64,000 nt of DNA, taken from an uncultured Allomuricauda sp. (GTDB lineage: Bacteria; Bacteroidota; Bacteroidia; Flavobacteriales; Flavobacteriaceae). Where the stretch lies: NCBI RefSeq assembly GCF_947495325.1, contig NZ_CANLYK010000001.1, forward strand, positions 806,001 through 870,000, read 5' to 3'. A model generated the notes under the pieces. That model searched no databases. It was not told the origin of the DNA and saw only the letters and a program-made list of their open reading frames with translations. Position numbers and translations under genes: made by a program. Positions 33,710 to 47,891 of the stretch are shown here, one piece after another. Every line of letters starts with the position of its first letter. Within the stretch, counting starts at the first letter, position 1.

Positions 33710-36463
33710 TTAATTAATAATTCGGTACCCACTATCCCTAACTTCCCCTGCCTTCCCTAGGGTATTGAATTTCCAACTAAAACCCAGCATAAAATATCGT
33801 TGTAAAACATTACTTTGTCTATCTTCAATAAAATATTCATTCGTAATTCTTCGAACATTCGTGTTTTGATTGAGTAGATCATAGGCCTTTAGGGTCAGCG
33901 TTGCTCTATCTTTCATAAAAGAATAGGCCAATGTAGAGTTCCAAAACCAAGCGCTTTTTTCAAAGCCATCTGCTACATCTGGGTTATAGTTATATGTTAT
34001 CTCATTGCGCCACTCAACATTTTTAGGAACAAAAGTAGCTGTCCTTAAAAACAGTAAGTGATTTGAAAAATTCTGATCATCAAAATCATCAATGTCAAAA
34101 TTACTTTGAGTTAGGGATATCCTATAATTTATCCCCAGTTCAGTAATGTCTTTCCATACAAATCTGGTACCCAAACTTGGTGACAATGTTTTTGACAAAC
34201 TAGCATATTGTATATCGCCATTAAAATTTATAACTCTTCTAAGTTCAGGGTTGAAACCAAAATTAAACTGGATTGTTTTCAAGGTATCCATTTTTATTTT
34301 TTTGTTATAACCCATATACATGTTTACTCTATAACCACCATTTACATTGGCATAAGTAGTTTCCCGGGTTAGGTTTTCGTTTATTGTACGTTTCACCGTA
34401 ATACCGTTGTTCTGTATCTGTGCATTAACATATGTGTACAAGTCTCTACCTTTTTGAAAATTATTTGCATTATAATACATGTGAAAATCATGGTAGTTGG
34501 AAGGTTTTAAACTTGGGTTACCAACAACAATCTCCAGTGGATTTGTAATGTCTATAAAGGTTTGCAATTGGTTTAATTGGGGAGGATTGTTTCTTAAATT
34601 ATAACCAGCTCCCAAAGATGATTTAGGACTTCTATAATTTAATCTATAGGCCACTGTAACTGCATTAAAATTGCGGCTTAGGTTAAAACTAGGTCTTAGA
34701 AAATCATTGTTCTCCAATGTTCTAAAAATCAAATCCATACCTAAAGAGGATGACCATTTATCTTTTTTATATTGTAAGCTTACGCCTGGTGTACTGGTTA
34801 TGTTTTTATACTCAAAATCCGAACTTAGGTCTACATTGATGTCCGTATCGTATTCTTGCGTTACTTCATTAAAATCAAATGAGTTTTTTAAATTTTCCTG
34901 TATATTGTTCCTGTAGCCGTATTTGAGATCCATTGACAGTTCTTTTCCTTTGATTGGCAACCTGTACGACATTCCAGCAATAAATGTATCATCATTCTTC
35001 TCTTCCATCCCTAATTGATTTCTTGTAATATTTTCTGGGTCGTCCCCGTACACATCAACTTGAGAATTAAATATATCTTCAATATCTGTTTTAGTGTTTC
35101 TGTTAAAAATATCAAGTTTTAAAAAAGAGCCTTTATTTCCAAAGCGCTTTGTAAAATTCACATTGTTTGAAAAGAACTTTTCTCTCCTTTCGGTGAACGC
35201 ACCGCTAATGGATTCATTGATCAATAATTGATCCTCATCAAAAGATTCTTCAGCATTGTTGGAAGTGTTTGTGCTCATTGCGTATCTAAACTTAGGCTCT
35301 ACGATGATTTGTAAGGTAGAGTCTACTTTTATTTGCAATTTGGTTTCTGTACTATGCTCTTCAATATTTGAATTGGTATTGGAACTGGAATTGGTGAAAA
35401 ATCTGTTATCTGGCAGTATATTTTCACGTTCTGATATTCTAATGTTATCTAAATCCACATTGGAAGCAAAATAGTTTGTGGAAATAACTACTTTTTCTCC
35501 TAAATCATCAGCATAATTTAGCCCGGTATTTCTTGAAGTCGATACGCCATCACCTTTGTCGTAGAATAGTTGTCTATTAATATTGTAGGATCCCCCAAAC
35601 ATTTTTCTGATCTCCCCAAAACTAAAACCTGGTGAATTAATGTTATTGCCCCCGCCTAAAACACTAAACTGCAAATCATCATTGAACGTATTGAACATCC
35701 CTGCAAATTCATAGCGCTTGTCGGTCCCAACACCAGCTGCAAAACGTCCAAAAATACCTTTGTTATTTTCTTTTTTTATAACCAGATTCACGGTTTTATT
35801 TGTTCTATCACCTTCCTCTCCCGTAAAGGCCTCCGAATCTGTTTTGGTATCGGACACTTGTATTTTCTCTACAATTTCTTTGCTTAAATTTCTTGTGGCA
35901 ATAGTGGGGTCATCTCCAAAAAACGGTTTTCCATTCACCAGTATTTTATTCATTTCTTTACCGTTTACTTTTATTTTTCCATCTGCATCCACTTCAAAAC
36001 CGGGGAGTTCTTTTAATAAATCCTCAATATTTGCATCTTTTTTTGCCTTAAAAGATTTTACGTTAAACTCAATAGTATCTTTTTTTATGGTTATGGGTGC
36101 ACTGGACTTTACAACTACCTCATCCAATACATTTGTATTGATCATAAGCGAAATTTCGCCTGCATTTATTATAGATTGATTTATTTGTATTCGCCTATAA
36201 TACGTTTGATACCCTATATGCGATACATAGAGGTCGGCCTCTGCAACATTACCATTGTTTTCCAGCAGAAACTTTCCCTGCTGATCAGAAACGGTGTACG
36301 TAATCAATGAACTGTCTTTTACTTGCTGAAGATATACGGTTGCAGATTCTATGGGTTGTTTATCAACCTCTGAGATCAAGGTTCCGGAAATTTCAAAAGA
36401 TTTGGATTGGGAAAAAGAAAAATTAATAAAGCATACTACTACTATTGTAAAAAATACACGCAT
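33710..36463 (-). CDS. Outer-membrane TonB-dependent-type beta-barrel with carboxypeptidase-regulatory domain
   Basis: A 917-residue protein. After a signal peptide (MRVFFTIVVVCFINFSFSQ) comes a carboxypeptidase D regulatory-like beta-sandwich (about 22-110). A plug domain follows (about 115-220, with VVKSSAPITIKKDTIEFNV, ELPGFEVDADGKIKVNGK and NKILVNGKPFFGDDP). A long 22-strand-type barrel of the outer-membrane beta-barrel family runs to about 917. No SusD partner is nearby, so this is an orphan transporter or receptor; the substrate is unknown. It lies 3' of an RHH gene and the LytTR/LytS pair, which may control it. Confidence 0.88.
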   Translation of the reverse strand: MRVFFTIVVVCFINFSFSQSKSFEISGTLISEVDKQPIESATVYLQQVKDSSLITYTVSDQQGKFLLENNGNVAEADLYVSHIGYQTYYRRIQINQSIINAGEISLMINTNVLDEVVVKSSAPITIKKDTIEFNVKSFKAKKDANIEDLLKELPGFEVDADGKIKVNGKEMNKILVNGKPFFGDDPTIATRNLSKEIVEKIQVSDTKTDSEAFTGEEGDRTNKTVNLVIKKENNKGIFGRFAAGVGTDKRYEFAGMFNTFNDDLQFSVLGGGNNINSPGFSFGEIRKMFGGSYNINRQLFYDKGDGVSTSRNTGLNYADDLGEKVVISTNYFASNVDLDNIRISERENILPDNRFFTNSSSNTNSNIEEHSTETKLQIKVDSTLQIIVEPKFRYAMSTNTSNNAEESFDEDQLLINESISGAFTERREKFFSNNVNFTKRFGNKGSFLKLDIFNRNTKTDIEDIFNSQVDVYGDDPENITRNQLGMEEKNDDTFIAGMSYRLPIKGKELSMDLKYGYRNNIQENLKNSFDFNEVTQEYDTDINVDLSSDFEYKNITSTPGVSLQYKKDKWSSSLGMDLIFRTLENNDFLRPSFNLSRNFNAVTVAYRLNYRSPKSSLGAGYNLRNNPPQLNQLQTFIDITNPLEIVVGNPSLKPSNYHDFHMYYNANNFQKGRDLYTYVNAQIQNNGITVKRTINENLTRETTYANVNGGYRVNMYMGYNKKIKMDTLKTIQFNFGFNPELRRVINFNGDIQYASLSKTLSPSLGTRFVWKDITELGINYRISLTQSNFDIDDFDDQNFSNHLLFLRTATFVPKNVEWRNEITYNYNPDVADGFEKSAWFWNSTLAYSFMKDRATLTLKAYDLLNQNTNVRRITNEYFIEDRQSNVLQRYFMLGFSWKFNTLGKAGEVRDSGYRIIN

Positions 36464-36659
36464 GATTGATGGTTCGTCTTTTGGTTAATTTATGCCGGAC
36501 AAACCTAATATTTGAGATGAACTTAGTAAGTCAGCAATTAGCTATCAATACGATTTACTTAGCAATCTATCTTATTCGATTAGAATTCATTTTGGGGTGA
36601 TTTGTACAATGATCTTGGTTTTGTGCTCAATTCAATCCTAAACCCAACACATTAAACAT
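36464..36659. other. Promoter region of the TonB-type receptor gene
   Basis: Intergenic 196 bases. Imperfect direct repeats AGCAAT (36533-36538, 36561-36566) each followed by CGATT (36551-36555, 36576-36580) are spaced about 28 bases and could be a regulator site. No other feature is evident. Confidence 0.3.
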
Positions 36660-36812
36660 TTATATTTGAAGCTTTGATTTTTTTAAGCCTATGAGCATAA
36701 GTGTTTCAGCCATGTTACTAAATGTTCTGTTCTCTTTTTCCGATAGTGTTTCAATATCCTTGACCAATTGTTTTTTAAGGGAAATAGTTTTTGCGATTGT
36801 TGTTTTTTCCAT
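36660..36812 (-). CDS. Ribbon-helix-helix (CopG/Arc-like) small protein
   Basis: A 50-residue protein MEKTTIAKTISLKKQLVKDI..., with a short beta-strand (TIAKTISL) followed by two helices joined by a turn (EKENRTFSNMAETLMLIGLKK). This is the ribbon-helix-helix pattern of CopG, MetJ and Arc repressors, which bind DNA as dimers. It stands alone, without a toxin gene adjoining. A TGTATACA palindrome lies at 36870-36877, about 58 bases upstream of its start. It may regulate the receptor gene downstream or itself. Confidence 0.75.
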   Translation of the reverse strand: MEKTTIAKTISLKKQLVKDIETLSEKENRTFSNMAETLMLIGLKKSKLQI

Positions 36813-36877: not shown

Positions 36878-37068
36878 AAGTTTTGATCCAAACAGAGTGC
36901 AAGAGTTTAGTGAGTAGGCCTCGATTTTGCAAAAAAGAATCTTTGTATTACTAGATTATTGATTGATGAAATAACTGAGTACTAAATATATTGGATGTCA
37001 ATTACATTTAAGAACACGTATTAGTCTTGAACTACATTTATTTAGTATTCCGCCTATTTGGTCTAGAA

Positions 37069-37821
37069 TTATTTTATGGAGGAGAGCATATTCAAGGTCT
37101 GTTCCTTTTTTAGTTTAGAAACACTTATGGTGCTACCATCTTTCATTAAGATATAACCACCATCTTTTTTAACAAATGACTTAACATGAATGCTATTGAT
37201 TAAATGGGATTGATGTGTTCTAATAAATTGATACGGGGAAAGTAAATCGTCCCACTCCTTTAATGTTCGGGACACTAAAACAGAACTACCGTTGGTAAGA
37301 TAAAACATGGTGTAATTGTTTTCACTTTTACATCTAATAATATCCACTATAGAAACAAAAAAAAGTTCCTCTGCGGTTGGAAGGGCTATTTTTTTAGGTT
37401 GATTAGAATTTTTCAGATTTTGCACCAAAACTTTTAATTTTTGGTTTTCCTTTTTTTCTGAAACTACTTGGGACACCCTAGATACTGCTTCCTGTAGCTC
37501 TGTTATTGCCACAGGCTTCATTAAATAATCCAAAGCACAAGACTTTATAGCTTGTAGTACATACTGATTGTATGCGGTTACAAAAATGACTTCAAAATTT
37601 ACATCTTCCACGGATTCCAACATTTCAAAACCATTCATTTTAGGCATTTCAATGTCCAGAAAAACCAAATCCGGTTGTTGTTTTGCTATAAGGCTTATTG
37701 CCTGTTGGGCCGAAGTGGCTACTCCGACAACTTCCACACATGAGCAGTTTTTTTCCAATAACCTATTTAGGTTTTCTAAATTATGCTCTTCATCGTCCAC
37801 TAAAATGCTTCTAATTGTCAT
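37069..37821 (-). CDS. LytTR response regulator
   Basis: A protein of 250 residues from ATG 37821 (MTIRSILVDDEEHN); an ATG at 37851 overlapping the kinase stop (TGATG) adds ten residues. The receiver (about 1-120) has VDDEE, LVFLDIEMPKMNGFEM with the phosphoacceptor Asp, VTAYN and the Lys of LMKPV. The LytTR DNA-binding domain (about 150-248) has SENNYTMFYLTNGSSVLVSRTLKEWDDL (a typical region, abbreviated) and PYQFIRTHQSHLINSIHV. It pairs with the LytS-type kinase encoded just upstream. Likely targets are the divergent and downstream receptor genes. Confidence 0.93.
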   Translation of the reverse strand: MTIRSILVDDEEHNLENLNRLLEKNCSCVEVVGVATSAQQAISLIAKQQPDLVFLDIEMPKMNGFEMLESVEDVNFEVIFVTAYNQYVLQAIKSCALDYLMKPVAITELQEAVSRVSQVVSEKKENQKLKVLVQNLKNSNQPKKIALPTAEELFFVSIVDIIRCKSENNYTMFYLTNGSSVLVSRTLKEWDDLLSPYQFIRTHQSHLINSIHVKSFVKKDGGYILMKDGSTISVSKLKKEQTLNMLSSIK

Positions 37822-37850
37822 TTTTCTTTTCAAACTAAAAAATTGGTCCA

Positions 37851-39200
37851 TCAATACCGTAAGGGCATTAAAATTTCAACAAGAGTTCCTGTATCTTCTT
37901 TATTTTGCCTAGATATGTTGGTTATATTGATTTTTGCATCGGTTTTATAGCTCTCATTGATTAAATCAATTCGGTCTTGGGCTAGTTTTAATCCATACTT
38001 CTTTCTTTTTACGCCCATATTGGTTTTGGGTTGCGAAGTATCAATGCCTACTCCATTGTCCTTAATGAGACAAGTTAATTTTTCGTCCACAATTTTGAAT
38101 TCAACACTCAGTTTTTTATCGCCTTCTTTTTCCTTAAGACCATGAATAATGGCATTTTCCACAAAAGGTTGAATCAACATTGCTGGAATTTCAATTTGAT
38201 GTATATCCAAATCTGGGGATATTTCGATTTCGTAGTCAAAGGATAGGCGTAATTTTTCCAGCTCCAAATACTTCCTGATAGAATCAATTTCTTCATGCAA
38301 AAGAACAAGACCTTTTTCCGATTTATCCAATGTTAAACGCATTAGTTGGGAAAACTCAGTCAAATAATGATTTGCCTTATCACTATCCCCTCTGTTTATA
38401 AGGTTTTGAATTGCGCTTAACGCATTGAACAAAAAATGAGGGTTCATTTGGGAACGGATACTTTTAAGCTGCATTTCCATAAATTTTCGCTTAGCAGCTT
38501 CCTTCTTTGCAGTAATTGCCATTTTCCATCTAAAAAGAAAATAACTTACTATAAGGAAGAGGACTATACCAAGAGAAATAAGACTGGTACTGTGTTTCTT
38601 AAAAAAGGATTCTTTCTTTAAGGCGTCGATCATTAAAAAACCCATACTCAAAAAATGACCCTCATCATTAATAAAGTTATGTGAATAATAGTATTCTCCT
38701 TCCTTATATAAAATAAGGGAATAGTTTATTCCATTGGCTGAAATACCATAAACCAACCTGTACGGTTCGCCCAAATAAACCACTGAATCATCCAATACAC
38801 TTATTCTGTCCTCAGAGCCATACCAATTTCCCTGAAGTATTTCAGGTATTTTTTTAAGACCGTTGGCCTTTACTTTAGTTAGGCCACTTATCGCATAGCC
38901 CTCATCCAAATTAATTTTGGCTGTATCAATTATTGAAAGACTAAAATATTTTATGTTGTCATTATTTACTCCTATAACATTTAAAACTTCTTTTTCTTTT
39001 ACAATATCATTGTAATAGAACAGCTCATTTTTGACAACGATATAGTCTCTTGCTATGATTAGTACAACTTCCTTTTGAGCATCTACCCAACTTCCTAAAA
39101 TTGATTCATCAAGCTCGGATGGTAGTATACTCACTCCCTGTCCGGATGATAGTATTGGAACCAGCAATACCAATATTAGGAATGTCTTTTTCAGTTTCAA
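37851..39200 (-). CDS. LytS/YehU-type sensor histidine kinase with a duplicated extracytoplasmic domain
   Basis: A 449-residue kinase. A signal peptide (to about 21) is followed by a periplasmic sensor (about 25-200) made of two similar beta units. The first is GSWVDAQKEVVLIIARDYIV and on; the second is GNWYGSEDRISVLDDSVVYL with SLILYKEGEYYY. One helix (about 205-226) and a His_kinase catalytic region follow: H-box QMNPHFLFNALSAIQ, N-box PFVENAIIHGL and DNGVGI. The neighbour upstream encodes a secreted protein with the same two-unit domain. The gene overlaps the response regulator start. Confidence 0.9.
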   Translation of the reverse strand: MKLKKTFLILVLLVPILSSGQGVSILPSELDESILGSWVDAQKEVVLIIARDYIVVKNELFYYNDIVKEKEVLNVIGVNNDNIKYFSLSIIDTAKINLDEGYAISGLTKVKANGLKKIPEILQGNWYGSEDRISVLDDSVVYLGEPYRLVYGISANGINYSLILYKEGEYYYSHNFINDEGHFLSMGFLMIDALKKESFFKKHSTSLISLGIVLFLIVSYFLFRWKMAITAKKEAAKRKFMEMQLKSIRSQMNPHFLFNALSAIQNLINRGDSDKANHYLTEFSQLMRLTLDKSEKGLVLLHEEIDSIRKYLELEKLRLSFDYEIEISPDLDIHQIEIPAMLIQPFVENAIIHGLKEKEGDKKLSVEFKIVDEKLTCLIKDNGVGIDTSQPKTNMGVKRKKYGLKLAQDRIDLINESYKTDAKINITNISRQNKEDTGTLVEILMPLRY

Positions 39201-39224
39201 ATAAAAATAATCTAGGATTAATTT

Positions 39225-40292
39225 TTAATTTTTTGTGTATCTAGCCCCTGGATAACCTCTAGGAGTCAATATATATTTACCGTTTGTTTTGCGTGCCGTA
39301 TAGAGCTGATAGTTTCCCTCTCTATATAGAACAAACCAGATTACATCTCCAGAATGTGATATTGCAACATGGTCTATGCGGCTTTTTATAACATCATAGA
39401 CGCCCATCGACCCCCTATCATCATTATAAAAGTAGTCGTCCGTAATGGTAATTCTCTTCACTCTTTGCCAATGCAACCATTCACCTTTCATAAACCCCAG
39501 AATAGTATTATTACTGGGTTTTCTTTTTAGGGTACTTAATTTATCTTGCCTTATGGTCATAATATCTCCTTCTATATTCAAGACTTCCAAACTGCCCCTA
39601 TTAGTTTTTATGGTGAAATTGATGTTCCCTGTCCGTTTAATGTTTTGATAGTATTGAACCCTTGAATTTGAGACTACATAATCTGGTGTGGTGATTAAAA
39701 TTAATGTGCCATGTTTATCATACCAATTACCAAAAAAAGCTTTTGGTAAATCTTTTGGAAGCATAGTACGCTCTCCCGTAGAGGCATAGTCGTCATTTTC
39801 AATGTGCTTATTGCCAAAAAACACTCTTTCGCCATTCGCATACATCGGTTCACTGGAGTTTTTAATGAAACCCCTTCCATTTTTGATCAGATCAAGTTTA
39901 TAAATGAACCAATTGCCTTTGGGGTTGGATTCGCCATAGTTTATTTTTTTAACATCCCTCCCTAAAGCGGGGAAATATAATTTATACCTGACTTCACCAG
40001 AATGTGATATTTGGAACCATTCGGATATGTTAACACCTTCAGATTTTTTTATATACAACCTTTCAGTATCCTCCCCTGAATTCTCTATATACGTACGGGC
40101 AGCTATCAAAAATCTACTCCCAATAGGGGCTTTCATGCTAAAGTGCAGAATTGTTTCTGTACCTGTTTGCTCTACCTTGGTAACTTTTCCAGGAAAATTA
40201 GTGCTTATATAGTCAGGGTTATAAGTGACTTTTTGAGCAATACTCGTTTTCCAGCAGAGTATAATACATAAAATTAAAAAAGCTCTTTTCAT
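39225..40292 (-). CDS. Secreted protein sharing the kinase's sensor domain
   Basis: A 355-residue protein with a signal peptide ending about residue 20 (WKTSIAQ). The N-terminal half (about 20-170) is a beta-rich unit (TGTETILHFSMKAPIGSRFL, EWFQISHSGEVRYKLYFP). The C-terminal half carries two units that match the sensor of the adjacent kinase. The first is AFFGNWYDKHGTLILITTPDYVV; the second is FMKGEWLHW with ITDDYFYNDD and WFVLYREGNYQLY. It lies 24 bases upstream of the kinase gene on the same strand. I infer a ligand-binding or signalling partner, but the function is unknown. Confidence 0.65.
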   Translation of the reverse strand: MKRAFLILCIILCWKTSIAQKVTYNPDYISTNFPGKVTKVEQTGTETILHFSMKAPIGSRFLIAARTYIENSGEDTERLYIKKSEGVNISEWFQISHSGEVRYKLYFPALGRDVKKINYGESNPKGNWFIYKLDLIKNGRGFIKNSSEPMYANGERVFFGNKHIENDDYASTGERTMLPKDLPKAFFGNWYDKHGTLILITTPDYVVSNSRVQYYQNIKRTGNINFTIKTNRGSLEVLNIEGDIMTIRQDKLSTLKRKPSNNTILGFMKGEWLHWQRVKRITITDDYFYNDDRGSMGVYDVIKSRIDHVAISHSGDVIWFVLYREGNYQLYTARKTNGKYILTPRGYPGARYTKN

Positions 40293-40478
40293 AATTGAGG
40301 AAACTCGTGTCCAAATATACCTTACTCAAAATCCCTTTCAATTACTAAATTAGAATTTGGTATAATATAATGAGTGATTAGGTTTAATTGAGTTATATTC
40401 CTTAAAAATCATAAAAAAAATGATTTTTTTAGAGCAACACAGCTACAGGATATATTTAATGGTATTAAGAACAGATTC

Positions 40479-41366
40479 ATGGTAAAATGTGTACTTAAAA
40501 TAGTTTTGTTTGTTTTTCTAGTTAATCCAATCAAAACATTCTCCCAAACAAAATTGGTAAATGAAAGGTGCTTAACAGATAACTCCTTTGATGATCGATA
40601 TGCTTCCTATTCCCCTTCTGGTGAGAAAATTGTATTTGAATCCAACAGAGATGGAAATTGGGAAATTTATCTAATGGATTCCACCGGAAACAATGTTACC
40701 AGATTAACTTTTAATGAAGCCGATGATAGAAGGCCCACTTGGCATCCGAGTGGAAAAAAGGTATTGTTTGAATCAACCCGAAATGGCGAAAATGAACTCT
40801 ACACGCTGAATTTGAAGAATTTGAAGACCAAACAGATCACAAACTTTGTGAAAGGAGAGCCTCTATTTGGAAATTTTTCTCCAGACGGGAAATTAATTGC
40901 CGTGGGTCTCAAAGAATCAGAAGATATCACCAATATTATTTTACTTGACCGTAAGGGAATAAAGGTAAGCGAATTAACAAATTCCAATAAAAGGAGCAAC
41001 TATCCAAAATGGTCCGAAGATGGAAGTAAGATTGTTTATTTTTCGCGAAAGGAGACAAATAATCAAGATGATGAAATATATAGTTATACTATTACGAATG
41101 GGGCCGGAAAGAGATTGACCCATTGGCCAAAACATAATTTTTGCCCATCATGGTCCAGTGATGGTTCAAAAATTGCTTACGTAACTTCCATGGAGGGTAC
41201 AAGGCCAGAAATTTATGTGATGGATTCCGATGGTAAAAATCAAGTGAGAATTACCACAAATGAAGATGGTGACACATTGCCCAATTGGGCTCCAAATGGC
41301 AATAAATTAATTATCACCGGATATAGAAATGGTAATTTTCAAATTTGTGAATTGGAATTAAAATAA
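40479..41366 (+). CDS. TolB-like secreted beta-propeller (PD40/WD40-like repeats)
   Basis: A 295-residue secreted protein with a signal peptide (MVKCVLKIVLFVFLV...). At least six PD40/DPP-like repeats are visible: FDDRYASYSPSGEKIVFES, DRRPTWHPSGKKVLFES, LFGNFSPDGKLIAVGL, NYPKWSEDGSKIVYFS, NFCPSWSSDGSKIAYVT and LPNWAPNGNKLIITG. The fold is a six-bladed propeller like TolB, but the TolB N-terminal domain is absent. It may be a sensor or a secreted protein-binding scaffold. It is divergent from the secreted kinase partner gene across about 190 bases. Confidence 0.8.
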   Translation: MVKCVLKIVLFVFLVNPIKTFSQTKLVNERCLTDNSFDDRYASYSPSGEKIVFESNRDGNWEIYLMDSTGNNVTRLTFNEADDRRPTWHPSGKKVLFESTRNGENELYTLNLKNLKTKQITNFVKGEPLFGNFSPDGKLIAVGLKESEDITNIILLDRKGIKVSELTNSNKRSNYPKWSEDGSKIVYFSRKETNNQDDEIYSYTITNGAGKRLTHWPKHNFCPSWSSDGSKIAYVTSMEGTRPEIYVMDSDGKNQVRITTNEDGDTLPNWAPNGNKLIITGYRNGNFQICELELK

Positions 41367-41467
41367 GAATGGTCTTCAAAATAACTTTGCAAAGAAACCT
41401 GAAGAGAATACAATAAATCATTCTTTTGTTTCTTTAAGATTGCGATATTAGCAATGCTTTTTACCCT

Positions 41468-42190
41468 ATGAAAGAAACCCGAATCAATAAATATTTAAGC
41501 GAAGTAGGTTATTGCTCGAGACGTGCTGCCGATAAACTTATAGACCAGGGCCGCGTGACCATTAATGGAAAAGTACCGGAGATGGGGACCAAAATAAGTT
41601 CTTTAGATGAGGTTCGCGTTGATGGCGAGCTCATCTCCGAACCCAAGGAAAAACCAGTCTATTTAGCTTTTAACAAACCCATTGGGATTGTTTGTACCAC
41701 GGATACCAGGGTTGAAAAGGACAATATCGTTGATTTTATCAATTACCCCAAGCGCATTTTTCCCATTGGCCGTTTGGACAAGCCCAGCGAAGGGCTCATT
41801 TTTATGACCAATGACGGGGATATCGTAAACAAAATTCTACGAGCCAGAAATCACCATGAAAAGGAATATGTGGTAACCGTAAACAAACCCATTACCCCAA
41901 ATTTCCTAAAGCGAATGCGAAATGGGATTCCAATTCTGGATACCGTGACCCGAAAATGTGAAGTGGAGCAACTGGGACAAAACCAATTTCGAATAGTTTT
42001 AACCCAAGGCCTTAACCGTCAAATCCGTAGAATGTGCGAACATCTTGATTATCGGGTACGGAAATTAAAACGTGTACGGATCATGAATGTCAATCTCGAT
42101 GTTCCCATAGGCAAATGGCGACATCTAACAGAAACCGAATTAAAAGAAATCAATAGGCTGGTTTCCAGTTCTGCCAAAACCCATGACTAG
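41468..42190 (+). CDS. rluF: 23S rRNA pseudouridine synthase, RluF/RsuA family
   Basis: A 240-residue enzyme that isomerises uridine to pseudouridine in rRNA. It has an N-terminal S4 RNA-binding domain (about 5-50, [20 protein letters not shown]) and the catalytic domain. In the catalytic domain [18 protein letters not shown] carries the Asp nucleophile, and [20 protein letters not shown] is the motif III region. The size and the [15 protein letters not shown] segment fit RluF best; RluE is an alternative. It stands alone on the plus strand. Confidence 0.88.
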
Positions 42191-42197
42191 ACTTCCC

Positions 42198-45100
42198 TTA
42201 TAAACGAACTATTTTAAAGGCTTCTTGCACCGTTTCACCTTCTATCGATATCATATAGGTTCCAGCACTTAGCAACCCTAAATCCAATTCCAACATTCTA
42301 TTTGCGGTGACTTCATAGTCAGACAGTAAAACCATATTTCCTGAAAAATTATGTACCGCTATTTTGACCTCAATATCCGTTCCGGGAATATAAATATTTA
42401 GAATACCATCCGTTGGGTTTGGCCCATATAGCATTTCTTCCGAAACTATTAGCTCTTCCTCATAAATTCCCTGGCAGTCAAAGCCTGTGCTTACCCTGAG
42501 GTTCGTCAAAGTATCTGAAAGTACTGTGGAGAAACTATTGCCCGTTACGTCAAAATCTTCATCATTTAGGGTTATCGTGTATGCATTACTTCCTGATAAG
42601 CTAAGCTCTAGAGCTCCAGATTCAGTATTGAACGTGTTTGTTACCAAAAGTGGCTCAGGTTCCATAATTACTGCTGTGGTACACACCTCCGTTTGTGGAA
42701 ATCCGACTATGGCAAAACAAATGTTATAGGAACCAGCCGATAAATTCTCAATAATTGTTGAAAAGCCTTCGGTAACATTCAAACCAAAAGTGTCCAAGCC
42801 TTCAAAGCTCACCTCATATCCAAAATCCGTATTGGTGGCACTGACTGTCAATGCCCCATCTGTACGTTCTGTACAGGAAGCAATCAACATCTCAACCACA
42901 AAATCATTAATTTCCAACTCCGGAATTGTACAACCTGTTCCATCCACAGCCGTTCCATTGGGTGTATCTGGACAATCATCCTCAAAGTTTGGTACCCCAT
43001 CCCCATCATCATCCAAAACCGAAACAGTGACGGTTGCAGTACCTGAAGTACTGTTCCCACTACTATCAATTGCAGTTAACGTCACTATATTTTCTCCAAA
43101 ATCGTCTGCGGTAAAGCTGTCTATATCCAACTGCAATGTTGAAATACCACAATTATCTGACGAACCATTGTCGATATCTTCTGCAGTAATCTGGGCAGTT
43201 GCAATTGCATCAAGTACTATGGCCATATCCGTGGTCAAAACTACAGGCAGTACATTGTCAACAACGGTCACCACCGAAGAACAACTACTGGAATTTCCGG
43301 CCACATCGGTCACAGTTAGGTTCACTACATCTTCCCCTAAATCTTCGCAGGTAAATGCTGTAACATCAATGGACCTACTTACTATGACGTTGGCATCAAA
43401 CGAATCGTTATCAATGGCTTCTGCCGAAATAGTGGCATTCCCCGAGTCATCCAAAGTAATGATCATAGGCTGGCAGACTGTTGTTGGCGCTGTAACATCA
43501 ACGGTAACTGCACTGCCATCCAAGGTATTCTCTACAAACAAACCATTATCGTACAAATCGGTCACGAACAGTTCAAACGTAACGTTTCCTTCCAACGCGC
43601 TTTCTGTAATGGGTAATATGCCCCTCCACAGATTATCCTCAACATTAAAAAATGTAACCACCGTACTATGAATGTTTCCTATGGCATTCAATAAGGGTTC
43701 ATTCGATTCAAAATCCAGATAAACCTCATCCCCTGCTCTAGCAAAACTTGCTGAGCCTGCATTATTGGAACTTAAGGTAATGGATTGCAACTCTGGAGCA
43801 GAAATATCATATATGACGGTGACCTCCTCTAAAGGGTTACTATTGTTCCCCGCCAAATCTCGGGCCATCCCAACATTTTCATTAAAAAAGCGAAGTTCAC
43901 CCTCTATAGTTGGGGTCACTTCTATGGTATAGGAAAAGCCCTCAATGACCGTGACCAAATCTCCCAAAGTAGCCATACTTAGACCATTTGCATCTGGAGC
44001 TACAGTTATAGGGTTTGGAGATAAATCCCTTACCTCCTCATCAAATACCAGTTCCAATGTAAAAGGCCCATCCACAACAGCGGGTACGTTCTGAAGACTT
44101 GGCGTAGGAGCTGTTATATCTGTCAATGTGGTAAATTCAACGGTATCGCCGTAGTGAATTACATCAAAAGCGTCTTTTACAAAAGCGCGTACATAATAGG
44201 TGGTATTTTGATCTAGTTCGGTAAAACCTGCGGTAAAATTGCCTGTGTCCAAAGGTGCACCCAACACAATTGTTCCTTTAGTTATAAAATCGACATCTTC
44301 TCCCAACTGTAAGCCATGTTCCGGAACTTGTGGATTCCCTAAATTCTCCATAGCACCATTTACGGTAACGGAAGTAGCTGTTAGATCAGAAACTGCAAGC
44401 GTGGTAACCTCGGGATCAAACTGCTGCCATTGCAGGTACGGATATCCGTTATTGTTTATCCCGTCTATTTTCCAGATTGTACCAAAATCCCAATTGGTAA
44501 AGGTGGCCTGTTGTTGCATTTCTGCTGTTGTCTTTCCATTTCCAGCAGCACTGGTGCCCTGCATTGAAGATTCCGTATTCCAGAAAGAATCTGTTGTCCC
44601 CCCAGTCAAAAAAGTAAACCCTCCAAGGTCAATCGAAGTCAATTCCTTTCCTATAAGACCCCCTACGTCGGTTGTTCCGTCAACAGTACCGACGGAAAAA
44701 GTGTTCTCAATGTCACCCAATTCATTTGTACCTATCAAACCCCCTACGGTGGTATCTCCATCCACATTACCGATACTATAGCTATTGGTAATGTTCCCTG
44801 TATTATAGCCAATAAGTCCTCCTGTTTGGCTTGTTCCCGAAACATCTGCTGAGCTATAGCTGGTGCTTATGCTAGATTTTGTATGGGTAACATCTCCTCC
44901 ATTTATCTCGACCTCATAGGCCGAATAACCAACAACCCCACCAACATTCATGCCCCCAGATACGTGACCGGATACATGAGCATTAGTAATTTGTGCTGCA
45001 TTGAAACCCACGAGCCCACCAACGATATCCGCACCTGTAATAGCAACATTCAACATCTGGATATTGGCCAAGGTACTTTCAAAACTGATAATTTGACCAA

Positions 45101-47891
45101 ATAAACCAACGATATCCTGTGTTGTTCGATTAATATGAAAATTGTTTAAGGCATATCCAAAGCCATCGTAATGACCCGCAAAAGGAATAGTATTATTTCC
45201 AATAGGAGAAAAACCTTCATTGTTCCCGTCACTGGTTAGGTCGTTGGGGTCATTGTATGGATCACCATCGTTGTTGTCATCGTTATCATCCAAAAATTGG
45301 GTCGCCGTAGCATCTATATCCGCGGTCTGTGCAAAATACATGTCCCAAGAGTCCGCGGTCTGGCTTATCCACAGCAGTTCCTGCAGGTTGGAAATCTGAT
45401 AGGGGTCCGATTGCGTGCCCGTGCCAGAAGGTGTTGTATAACTGGTGGGCACAATATGCGTGGTAAAGCTTACAGTTTCACCATAGATGGTTCCTGAATC
45501 CGAACTTACCCAACTGCGTATAAAGTTTTCCGTATTTGGTTGTAAATTGGTTATTGCCAAGGAAAAATTGCCAGTACTGGAAGGGGCACCCAATGAATAG
45601 GTTGCCTTAAAATCAAAATTGGCGTCTAAGCCTATATCAAACCCATGATCGGTTGCACTTGGATTTCCAAGGTTGTCCAAACTGCCATTTGCCGTTACGG
45701 TGGTCTGTGAGATGTCCGAGACCGCTGCAGTGGTTACCCCAGGATCAAACTGCTGCCATTGCAGGTACGGGTATCCGTCATTGTTTATCCCGTCTATTTT
45801 CCAGACCGTGCTAAAATCCCAATTGGTAAAGGTGGTCTGTTGTTGCATTTCCGAAGTCGTTTTTCCAACTTCAGAACCGTGACTGCTGCTTTGCCCTGAA
45901 GTCTGTGTATCCCAGAAACAATCTGTTGAAACATTTGTTTGAAGCCCCACTAAACCGCCTACGAAAGATGAACCCGATACCACTCCCGTTGAAAAAGAAT
46001 TTTCAATATCCCGAGTAGATTGGCCAACTAAACCCCCAACTTCATCTGGACAGGATACAGATGCCCTTGAAAAAGAATTTTCAATACTACGATGGGATTG
46101 ACCAATTAAACCGCCTACATACCTATCTCCCTCAACCGTTCCGGTTGCATAACAACGGATTATGTTATGTGAGCTTGAACCAACTAAAGTCCCTACCTCT
46201 TCCTTTCCTATGACGTTGCAGTTGGTTATACCCAAGTCTAAAATGCTAGAATCAGATCCATTAGACTTACCTATAAAGCCGACATTATCTATAGTGGGGC
46301 GGTCAATAAACAGGCCATCAACAATATGGCCCTGACCATTATAGTCCCCTTCAAAGTGGGTACTGCTATTTCCTATAGGAGAAAAACCTTCGTTGTTCCC
46401 GTTACTGGTGAGGTCGTTGGGGTCATTGTACGGATCACCATCGTTGTTGTCATCGCTATCATCCAAAAATTGGGTAGCCGTGGCATCTATATCCGCGGTC
46501 TGTTCATAATACGTGTCCCAAGAATCCGGGGTCTGGCTTATCCACAACAGTTCCTGCAGGTTGGAAATCTGATAGGGATCCGCTTCCGTTCCCGAACCGG
46601 AGGGTGCCGTATAACTAGTGGGCACAATATGTGTGGTAAAACTTTCCACGGTTCCGTAAACGGTGCCAGCGCTATTGGTGGCATAGGCACGTACATAATA
46701 GGTAGTGCCAGCGGACAAACCGCTAAATGCCTGTGTATAGTTGCCCGTGGCACTGGGAGCACCGGGGCCAAAAATGGTGGTGCCTGAGGAAAAATCCGAT
46801 GTTGTCGACAACTCAAACCCATGATCCGTGGCACCTGGGTTTCCAAGGTTGTCCAAACTGCCATTTGCCGTTACGGTGGTCTGTGATATATCCGAAACCG
46901 GAGCAGTGGTGACCTCAGGGTCAAACTGCTGCCATTGCAGGTATGGATAGCCCCCGTTGTTTAACCCATCAATTTTCCAGATTGTACTAAAATCCCAATT
47001 GGTAAAAGTTTCTTCGAGTTGCATTTCTGCTGTTGTCTTACCCACAGCATCACCACCACTGGTACTCTGTCCTGAAGTATCTGTATCCCAGAATATATCA
47101 TTTTCCCCAAAAAATGAGTTGCCAATCAACCCGCCCACATAGAATGGTCCAGATACCGCTCCAGTTGCATATGAATTTTCGATTGATTCATTGGAAAAAC
47201 CCACCAAACCACCCACCATAAACGAACCTGATACCGCAACCATTGTGTATGATTTTTCAATATTCTGATTGGATTCGCCTAGTAAACCACCCACAATCTG
47301 ATCGCCAAAAACCATACCAGTCGCATAACAACCGATTATGTTATGTTTGCTTAGTCCAACTAAGGCTCCTACCTGATCTTCTCCGGTAATATTACAGTTG
47401 GTTATTCCCAACTCTAAAATAGAGCTGGAATCCAATCCTATTGTAATATAATTTGATCTACCAATAAAACCCACATAATCCGTAACGGGGCGGTCAATGA
47501 ACAAACCATCTATAACATGGCCCTGGCCATTGTATATCCCTTCAAAATAGGTACTGCTATTTCCTATTGGAGAAAAACCTTCGTTGTTCCCGTCACTGGT
47601 AAGGTCATTGGGGTCATTGTACAGATCACCATCGTTGTTGTCATCCGCATCATCCCAATATTGGGCTTCTGAGGCATCTATATTGGCTGTTTGCTCAAAA
47701 TAGCTGCTCCAAGCAGCGCTTGTTTGTGTAAGCCATGATAAATGGGCCAGTGAAGAAATTTGATAGGGATCTCCTGAAGTACCTGAACCAGAGGGTTGCG
47801 ATACATTGGTTTGCGCTGTTGTTAGCACAGGCAGTACAAACAAGAACAGTACAATTCCCTTTTGATATAGTTTTATTGGGTTGGATTTCAT
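42198..47891 (-). CDS. Giant type IX-secreted surface protein with GLUG and fibronectin/HYR-like repeats
   Basis: A 1,897-residue protein with signal peptide. Three large units at about residues 30-430, 430-830 and 830-1210 each start SGTGTxxDPYQISxLxxLxW. Each contains the landmarks DDNDDNNDGDPYNDPNDLTS, several GLUG motifs (VGGLVG...SYATGxVSG) and a WDFxTxWKIDGxNNxGYPYLQ end with a fibronectin-like ATDHG domain. Then come Ig-like big domains, HYR-like units, a thrombospondin-type DDDGDGVPNFEDDCPDTPNG, and a C-terminal T9SS sorting domain (LYGPNPTDGILNIYI, ending FKIVRL). It is likely an adhesin or calcium-binding surface protein. Confidence 0.85.
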   Translation of the reverse strand: MKSNPIKLYQKGIVLFLFVLPVLTTAQTNVSQPSGSGTSGDPYQISSLAHLSWLTQTSAAWSSYFEQTANIDASEAQYWDDADDNNDGDLYNDPNDLTSDGNNEGFSPIGNSSTYFEGIYNGQGHVIDGLFIDRPVTDYVGFIGRSNYITIGLDSSSILELGITNCNITGEDQVGALVGLSKHNIIGCYATGMVFGDQIVGGLLGESNQNIEKSYTMVAVSGSFMVGGLVGFSNESIENSYATGAVSGPFYVGGLIGNSFFGENDIFWDTDTSGQSTSGGDAVGKTTAEMQLEETFTNWDFSTIWKIDGLNNGGYPYLQWQQFDPEVTTAPVSDISQTTVTANGSLDNLGNPGATDHGFELSTTSDFSSGTTIFGPGAPSATGNYTQAFSGLSAGTTYYVRAYATNSAGTVYGTVESFTTHIVPTSYTAPSGSGTEADPYQISNLQELLWISQTPDSWDTYYEQTADIDATATQFLDDSDDNNDGDPYNDPNDLTSNGNNEGFSPIGNSSTHFEGDYNGQGHIVDGLFIDRPTIDNVGFIGKSNGSDSSILDLGITNCNVIGKEEVGTLVGSSSHNIIRCYATGTVEGDRYVGGLIGQSHRSIENSFSRASVSCPDEVGGLVGQSTRDIENSFSTGVVSGSSFVGGLVGLQTNVSTDCFWDTQTSGQSSSHGSEVGKTTSEMQQQTTFTNWDFSTVWKIDGINNDGYPYLQWQQFDPGVTTAAVSDISQTTVTANGSLDNLGNPSATDHGFDIGLDANFDFKATYSLGAPSSTGNFSLAITNLQPNTENFIRSWVSSDSGTIYGETVSFTTHIVPTSYTTPSGTGTQSDPYQISNLQELLWISQTADSWDMYFAQTADIDATATQFLDDNDDNNDGDPYNDPNDLTSDGNNEGFSPIGNNTIPFAGHYDGFGYALNNFHINRTTQDIVGLFGQIISFESTLANIQMLNVAITGADIVGGLVGFNAAQITNAHVSGHVSGGMNVGGVVGYSAYEVEINGGDVTHTKSSISTSYSSADVSGTSQTGGLIGYNTGNITNSYSIGNVDGDTTVGGLIGTNELGDIENTFSVGTVDGTTDVGGLIGKELTSIDLGGFTFLTGGTTDSFWNTESSMQGTSAAGNGKTTAEMQQQATFTNWDFGTIWKIDGINNNGYPYLQWQQFDPEVTTLAVSDLTATSVTVNGAMENLGNPQVPEHGLQLGEDVDFITKGTIVLGAPLDTGNFTAGFTELDQNTTYYVRAFVKDAFDVIHYGDTVEFTTLTDITAPTPSLQNVPAVVDGPFTLELVFDEEVRDLSPNPITVAPDANGLSMATLGDLVTVIEGFSYTIEVTPTIEGELRFFNENVGMARDLAGNNSNPLEEVTVIYDISAPELQSITLSSNNAGSASFARAGDEVYLDFESNEPLLNAIGNIHSTVVTFFNVEDNLWRGILPITESALEGNVTFELFVTDLYDNGLFVENTLDGSAVTVDVTAPTTVCQPMIITLDDSGNATISAEAIDNDSFDANVIVSRSIDVTAFTCEDLGEDVVNLTVTDVAGNSSSCSSVVTVVDNVLPVVLTTDMAIVLDAIATAQITAEDIDNGSSDNCGISTLQLDIDSFTADDFGENIVTLTAIDSSGNSTSGTATVTVSVLDDDGDGVPNFEDDCPDTPNGTAVDGTGCTIPELEINDFVVEMLIASCTERTDGALTVSATNTDFGYEVSFEGLDTFGLNVTEGFSTIIENLSAGSYNICFAIVGFPQTEVCTTAVIMEPEPLLVTNTFNTESGALELSLSGSNAYTITLNDEDFDVTGNSFSTVLSDTLTNLRVSTGFDCQGIYEEELIVSEEMLYGPNPTDGILNIYIPGTDIEVKIAVHNFSGNMVLLSDYEVTANRMLELDLGLLSAGTYMISIEGETVQEAFKIVRL

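Follow-up and report, generated by a model that had tools for sequence, protein, structure and literature searches.

In the CpxP/CpxA and QseG/QseE systems, a periplasmic or lipoprotein accessory protein is encoded together with a sensor kinase. The accessory protein in these systems is not known to be homologous to the sensor domain, unlike the pair described here. Few LytS-type kinases of this bacterial group have a known input signal. The locus lies in the window, meaning the whole stretch of 64,000 nucleotides that was analysed (uncultured Allomuricauda sp., contig NZ_CANLYK010000001.1, positions 806,001 to 870,000). It consists of three genes on the minus strand, encoding a secreted protein (S, 39225-40292, 355 aa), a LytS-type histidine kinase (K, 37851-39200, 449 aa, with a TTG start) and a response regulator (RR, 37069-37854). 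The S-K-RR genes may form an autoregulated envelope-sensing operon, with S acting on K as an accessory co-sensor or feedback titrator, a reading to which we give about an even chance.

The two-unit domain shared by K and S

K has a PF06580 kinase domain (E 1e-23, 83.6 bits, cut-off 25.2) and an HATPase_c match that is under the cut-off (E 4e-5, 24.4 bits, cut-off 26.4). By hydropathy, its ectodomain is bounded by hydrophobic stretches at residues 1-27 and 203-231. The ectodomain holds unit 1 (K1, 38865..39131) and unit 2 (K2, 38625..38858), both supported by profile comparison and predicted model. S has a hydrophobic N-terminus (residues 4-22), then an N-domain (39867..40235) and a C-terminal two-unit domain (S1, 39513..39767; S2, 39237..39512), all on the minus strand. 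RR has a receiver domain (Response_reg, E 4e-24, 85.4 bits) and a LytTR domain (E 3e-15, 56.7 bits), both above the cut-off; its true start is probably the ATG at 37821, judged by eye-alignment with the RR of other loci. The S and K genes are separated by 24 bases. This gap, the coordinates and the motifs quoted from the units are as given in the first-pass annotation of the sequence.

K and S align by BLASTP at E 5e-9 (25% identity over 159 columns), co-linear across both units. This agrees with the earlier description of a kinase input domain and a secreted twin having the same two units in the same order. In the window pair, none of 2000 shuffles was as good as the K1-S1 alignment (z 13) or that of the whole domain (z 13). 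K2-S2 alone was not significant (109 of 2000 shuffles), and the same was true within each protein (K1-K2, 153 of 2000; S1-S2, 215 of 2000). Profiles were built from seven orthologous pairs, the eighth, that of G024, being omitted as a near-copy from the alignments, the tree and the operator tests. The hhalign E-values, which are for single comparisons, are 5e-15 for K1-S1 and 4e-9 for K2-S2, with none of 20 column shuffles as good in either case. The K1 profile also matches that of K2 (64 columns, E 4e-6), again with no column shuffle of 20 as good, and there is no match between those of S1 and S2 (15 of 20 as good). The earlier claim that the domain is duplicated was borne out in part: the sequences support kinship of unit 1 with unit 2 in K and not in S, and the predicted models, where both units are of barrel type, speak for it as well.

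Searches of Pfam, NCBIfam and PDB sequences with S, K and the profiles gave no match to the two-unit domain above the cut-off, and matches to the two-unit profile are sparse and specific across hundreds of genomes. Common low-complexity beta sequence therefore does not account for the shared residues. Single weak matches were left unused (CBM_X2, E 0.07; Lipocalin_4, E 0.08; 1r0u to the N-domain, E 0.15). No viral relatives were found by sequence, and the best match in a viral fold library had E 0.035 and a TM-score of 0.26. A Pfam-type family scan found no thioredoxin family in S or K. There is no cysteine in mature window S or the window K ectodomain, and none is conserved among the S or K proteins, so direct thiol sensing by K or S was set aside.

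Predicted structures

The AlphaFold model of the K ectodomain (pLDDT 89.3, pTM 0.85) has two strand-rich units and was made from an 8-row alignment of four K and four S sequences. That of S (pLDDT 76.9, pTM 0.60) was made from nine rows, being four S sequences, two TlpA N-domains and three K ectodomains. Each unit is predicted to be a small beta-barrel in K and S alike, unit 1 being lipocalin-like. The GxW of unit 1 is present in all 17 rows of the alignment of K, S and TlpA-type units (invariant G11 and W13); in unit 2 the W alone is invariant.

The best structural match to K unit 1 is Tp0751 (5jk2; Z 10.8, 84 residues, rmsd 2.3, VIA comparison), which has been described as a lipocalin fold. 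Tp0751 is a single barrel from an unrelated context and its likeness to K unit 1 is structural only. K unit 2 matches residues 364-451 of SurE (Z 8.7, rmsd 2.6, VIA comparison). D-aminopeptidase 1ei5 is matched over its residues 336-520 by the two K units together (Z 7.2, 149 residues, rmsd 4.5), and over the same stretch by the two S units (336-519; Z 7.7, 160 residues, rmsd 5.0). Because a Z under 8 may, by the tool's own note, reflect merely a common arrangement, the tandem layout common to the two models is suggestive and the match of the predicted unit 1 is the firmer one. The best structural matches to the N-domain of S have a Z of 7.6 or less, within the tool's common range, and therefore no fold is claimed for it.

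Relationship with TlpA-type proteins

The first-pass annotation could not place the domain among known families. This can now be revised, since, besides the lipocalin-fold match of unit 1, the same units are N-terminal in proteins of TlpA/redoxin type. The profile of K and S sequences (K+S profile) also matches four large proteins, in G371 (E 2e-13), G550 (7e-13), G575 (6e-11) and G352 (1e-5). Those of G371, G550 and G575 start with unit 1 and unit 2, then a third related unit, and those of G371 and G550 have a C-terminal thioredoxin domain (by Pfam for G371). In G575 the frame breaks within the third unit and the thioredoxin domain sits in a second open frame. The G352 protein has the N-domain, a unit of the third type and thioredoxin.

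The two-unit TlpA-type gene of G575 lies in its two frames (L071 8430-9242 and 6387-8384, minus strand) beside two LytTR regulator-kinase pairs. The pieces were scanned separately and unmended, and the split is either a pseudogene or a sequencing error.

The first TlpA unit is matched by K1 (E 1.5e-8) and S1 (7e-6), and the second by K2 (2.5e-9) and S2 (3e-7); crossings between first and second units, K or S against TlpA, have E 0.004 or worse. This one-to-one matching is imperfect, as S1 is closer to the third TlpA unit type (E 2.5e-7) than to the first. K1 also matches the third type (E 3e-6). With both S1 and K1 doing so, the units resemble copies of a single kind of repeat.

The N-domain of S matches that of the TlpA-type proteins in L046, L047 and L049 at E 1e-38 over 118 columns. 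It was found in 13 of 249 genomes of the family, these being the window's genome, G595 and 11 others, where it occurs with thioredoxin in one frame (nine), as broken pieces (one) or without thioredoxin (one). Seven of the eight S proteins have the N-domain; the eighth, in G736, consists of the two units only and has a lipobox-like start, judged by eye. S is thus a twin of the kinase input domain as regards the two units and is more than a twin in most genomes. From these alignments, S resembles the front end of a TlpA-type protein minus the thioredoxin, and K appears to use the two-unit part as its sensor. A tree of 17 rows places each of the K, S and TlpA sets on one side of a branch (support 65/70, 94/94 and 100/99), which fits one split of K from S.

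TlpA-type genes flank S-K-RR in L046, L047 and L049. The two-unit TlpA genes of G371 and G575 each come right after a different LytTR regulator and LytS-type kinase; the G550 contig carries its two-unit TlpA gene alone. None of the other 11 N-domain genes has a LytTR regulator or LytS-type kinase within about 10 kb on either side. In the window's genome the N-domain profile matches S alone. A profile of the third unit found nothing there, in a search that had no positive genome alongside.

The LytS-type kinase adjoining the two-unit TlpA gene of G371 (L069 10624-12369, minus strand) has a different ectodomain, weakly DUF2927-like (E 0.002, below the cut-off). Judging from this ectodomain, TlpA-type output may be wired to other sensors.

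Distribution and gene neighbourhood

S, K and RR are on one strand and in that order in all eight genomes where S or K was found, with S and K as neighbours in each. The carriers are the window's genome, G024, Flavivirga jejuensis (L046), F. aquimarina (L047), an uncultured Flaviramulus (L048), G595 (L049), G728 (L067) and G736 (L068). The S of G024 is 99% identical to that of the window. The named carriers suggest that the family concerned is the Flavobacteriaceae.

The S-K-RR system is rare and patchy. S was found in 2 of 59 relatives and the K ectodomain in 1 of 295 genomes of the class. The K+S profile matched 12 of 397 genomes of the family at E 0.01, with the pair present in four; four others (G480, G437, G467 and G473; E 0.001 to 0.007) were treated as chance, uninspected, as were 28 of the 30 matching genomes of an earlier profile search, with E 0.002 or worse and short or broken stretches. 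The 17-row profile matched at least 1 of 345 genomes of the phylum and at least 2 of 276 relatives of G736, with the pair in one, from at most the best 10 and 13 candidates per genome respectively; the search of 276 genomes missed G352, which the K+S profile matches at E 1e-5. Among the titles and abstract openings found in the open-licence PMC literature, none describes the S-K pair.

The rluB-like gene that flanks the locus has a close homologue (72% or more) in 9 of 40 genomes of the window's genus. In the seven congeners other than the window's genome and G024, about 20 kb around this gene contains no ORF matching S, K, RR or the outer-membrane protein described below at E 1e-8, and the stretch beside it (40479-42190 in the window; L100-L106) has different gene sets in all seven. 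The locus thus occupies a site that varies within the genus, a pattern to be expected from gain by transfer or from repeated loss.

Further along, the window encodes a secreted protein of 1897 aa (42198-47891, minus strand) with several near-identical repeat blocks, GLUG-like by motif, and fibronectin-like stretches. A homologue with 95% identity is present in G024 (L015).

Direct repeats upstream of the operon

Two direct repeats of approximately AAAT(T/A)CT(C/A)ATTT, 21 bp apart, start at -84 to -87 of S in all seven loci. In leave-one-out tests of these promoters, none of 200 simulated sequences scored as high for any of the seven. In the window the tandem pattern has one match (40348..40379, minus strand), with 0.04 expected, and is the probable RR operator. 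A TAnnTTTG element, which we take to be the -7 box of this phylum, is present at -24 to -27 of S in six of the seven. In Streptococcus, operons of LytTR regulators have 9-bp direct repeats just upstream of the promoter, mostly with 12-bp gaps and therefore a 21-bp period, that serve positive feedback (PMC6193735).

A triple form of the repeat, ATTCTAR, RCTAA and CTMAT at 21 + 21 bp, was first recognised by eye. It is found before an outer-membrane barrel protein gene (OMP) in the window, F. aquimarina and Flaviramulus (leave-one-out 0, 0 and 3 of 300 simulated sequences). The window OMP (33710..36463, minus strand; CarbopepD_reg_2 and OMP_b-brl_3) is a probable RR target. It follows RR after a gap of 605 bases, and OMP homologues also come after RR in L047 and L048. 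The window has an exact triple repeat upstream of OMP (36537..36586) and another starting at the RR stop (37020..37069), upstream of a 50-aa ribbon-helix-helix-like ORF (36660..36812; RHH_5 E 0.004, below the cut-off) that lies between RR and OMP, all on the minus strand. TlpA-type genes in F. jejuensis and G595 are preceded by the triple repeat too (0 of 300 each). A second F. aquimarina TlpA-type gene (T2_L047) has it as well (0 of 300), in a test that is not independent, being scored with the full matrix that includes its likely copy OMP_L047. The TlpA genes of G371 and G575 do not have the triple repeat.

There are two exact triple patterns in the window's 4.1-Mb genome and one each in G595, F. 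jejuensis and F. aquimarina (the last two scanned as G1038 and G1039), all within these loci, and none in G728 or G736. As the pattern was written from sites in four of the scanned genomes, only the absence of further exact matches is informative. In the window's genome, the exact pattern of the probable operator thus points to this locus alone. At up to one mismatch there are 12 matches in the six genomes, compared with three for the reversed pattern; five are the exact ones, and of the seven others one is the F. jejuensis S promoter and six are elsewhere. The triple matrix on S promoters gave 0 to 26 of 300 simulated sequences as good. The tandem matrix trained on S promoters does not single out the OMP sites (72, 16 and 40 of 200 as good) and fails on T_L049a, T3_L069 and T3_L071 (16, 84 and 70 of 200). 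T_L047 has a repeat pair of the S type with a spacing of 23.

The positions of the repeats suggest that RR would bind them and activate the S-K-RR operon together with the OMP or TlpA-type gene beside it, and that S would be induced by its own two-component system, as CpxP is. S could be an effector of the regulon only, a catalysis-free envelope protein of TlpA type with the same module and no action on K. The N-domain and repeat-bearing promoter of S fit this, as do the TlpA-type genes with repeats in F. jejuensis, F. aquimarina and G595. It is nonetheless unlikely, in that S has never been met apart from K at the thresholds used and in G736 has been cut down to the shared two units.

Relationship between S and K

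Distances between K ectodomains and those between S domains are correlated (r 0.85). The correlation is 0.60 once RR distances are removed (29 of 5040 permutations) and 0.79 with kinase-core distances removed (7 of 5040). Mean identity is 55% in S unit 1 and 41% in K unit 1, with 21 of 83 and 9 of 87 positions invariant; the higher conservation in S is as would be expected of a binding surface on it. The S of G736 has lost the N-domain and kept the two units, which makes these the part retained alongside K.

These correlated distances, the homology of the domains, and the adjacent genes in strict order in all eight genomes are also consistent with a heterodimeric co-receptor, in which the ectodomains of S and K pair as homologous subunits and the complex alone binds the signal, as VtrC does with VtrA. 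A lipocalin-like partner has a precedent in that system (PMC9214523). The ectodomains of VtrA and VtrC are of different folds there, whereas those of S and K are homologous, and we regard a co-receptor as rather doubtful.

The ligand-receptor, decoy and co-sensor roles proposed in the first-pass annotation cannot be separated by sequence. Were S a secreted ligand or decoy passing between cells, with K as its receptor, its export signal-like N-terminus and apparently autoregulated promoter would be accounted for. The lipobox-like start in G736 would keep S in the membrane, however, and a ligand sharing the fold and unit order of its receptor would be unusual. Of the three roles a secreted ligand seems the least likely, because S is under an apparent RR operator and has the receptor's own fold, and we consider it highly improbable.

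Proposed mechanism

The accessory co-sensor or feedback titrator is ranked first, followed by the heterodimeric receptor in the manner of VtrA/VtrC and then by S as a mere target. Homology, gene order, co-occurrence and the conserved repeats and positions are computed, and from these we infer binding of RR to the repeats, contact or a common ligand between S and K, the sign of the feedback and the nature of the signal. The periplasmic sensor of K would be a tandem of two small lipocalin-like barrels, as at the start of certain TlpA/redoxin-type proteins. S would be its periplasmic accessory protein, probably lipid-anchored in one genome, with the form of a TlpA-type front end lacking the thioredoxin. 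It may set the activity of K by sharing a ligand or partner of K or by pairing with the K ectodomain. When K is triggered, RR would bind the 21-bp direct repeats and raise S-K-RR. It would also switch on a local target, the OMP gene (window, F. aquimarina and Flaviramulus) and/or TlpA-type genes (F. jejuensis, F. aquimarina and G595). As S would be made when the signal is present, feedback on K as a titrator or co-sensor is its most likely role, like that of CpxP or QseG. Since S seems to rise with the output of the system and shares the sensor domain, it would be able to compete for the ligand or present it.

Several observations weigh against this reading. S could be just another RR target without contact with K, and the correlated distances are a hint only, seven taxa being few for co-evolution. 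The K group in the tree is weakly supported (65/70). No TlpA-type protein with the N-domain was found by profile in the window's genome, and the effector link therefore does not hold there. Foldseek searches with the K and S models found no match at E 0.001 or better, the best PDB chain for K being 5jk2 at E 0.04. Both models rest on shallow alignments in which K and S rows are mixed, and are therefore not independent. The triple form, tested by leave-one-out on five sites, is a post-hoc description; the Flaviramulus site is weak, and the clusters of G728 and G736 have no triple match even at one mismatch.

A more specific form of the accessory reading is possible, though tentative. The input domain of K may derive from the front end with which envelope proteins of the TlpA-redoxin type, the type that the regulon makes in several genomes, would bind their ligand or client, and S may be a catalysis-free copy of that front end competing with K for the same ligand. 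If so, the circuit would weigh free ligand or client against free binding capacity, as a titration thermostat, and sensor, buffer and effector would all be built on one homologous tandem-barrel module. The case hints at a sensor built by taking over the domain with which its own effector binds. The ligand, partner and regulon are directly testable in a small system.

Comparison with known systems

K and RR resemble LytS/LytTR two-component systems in the His_kinase core and in the regulator with receiver and LytTR domains. The 21-bp period of the direct repeats just upstream of the operon promoter is also shared (PMC6193735). LytS proper has several N-terminal membrane helices as its input, whereas K has two hydrophobic stretches only, no such Pfam domain, a two-unit periplasmic sensor and a soluble twin. 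The LytTR regulatory system (LRS) has a membrane inhibitor and no kinase, unlike S-K-RR, where a kinase and a receiver domain are present.

S is like the TlpA/ResA-type redoxins of the same family (for example L046 10320-12455 and L069 6940-9783) in its N-domain, and both S and K are like them in the ordered two-unit tandem seen in G371, G550 and G575. These redoxins have a thioredoxin-like domain with CxxC, whereas S and K have neither a thioredoxin domain nor a conserved cysteine, and K is fused to a kinase. Homology in this way links a sensor domain outside any named family with the N-terminal part of TlpA-type proteins.

VtrA/VtrC and ToxR/ToxS, as co-component systems, are similar in having neighbouring genes and a lipocalin-like periplasmic partner. 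They have a membrane-bound transcription factor without phosphorelay and partners of different folds (PMC9214523), whereas K is a kinase with a separate regulator. Among accessory-protein systems, S-K is closest to CpxP/CpxA and QseG/QseE (PMC4160245, PMC12691602). What is new here is real, rare and well-delimited: an accessory-protein two-component system in which the sensor and the accessory protein share one homologous domain, which is also found on TlpA-type envelope proteins.

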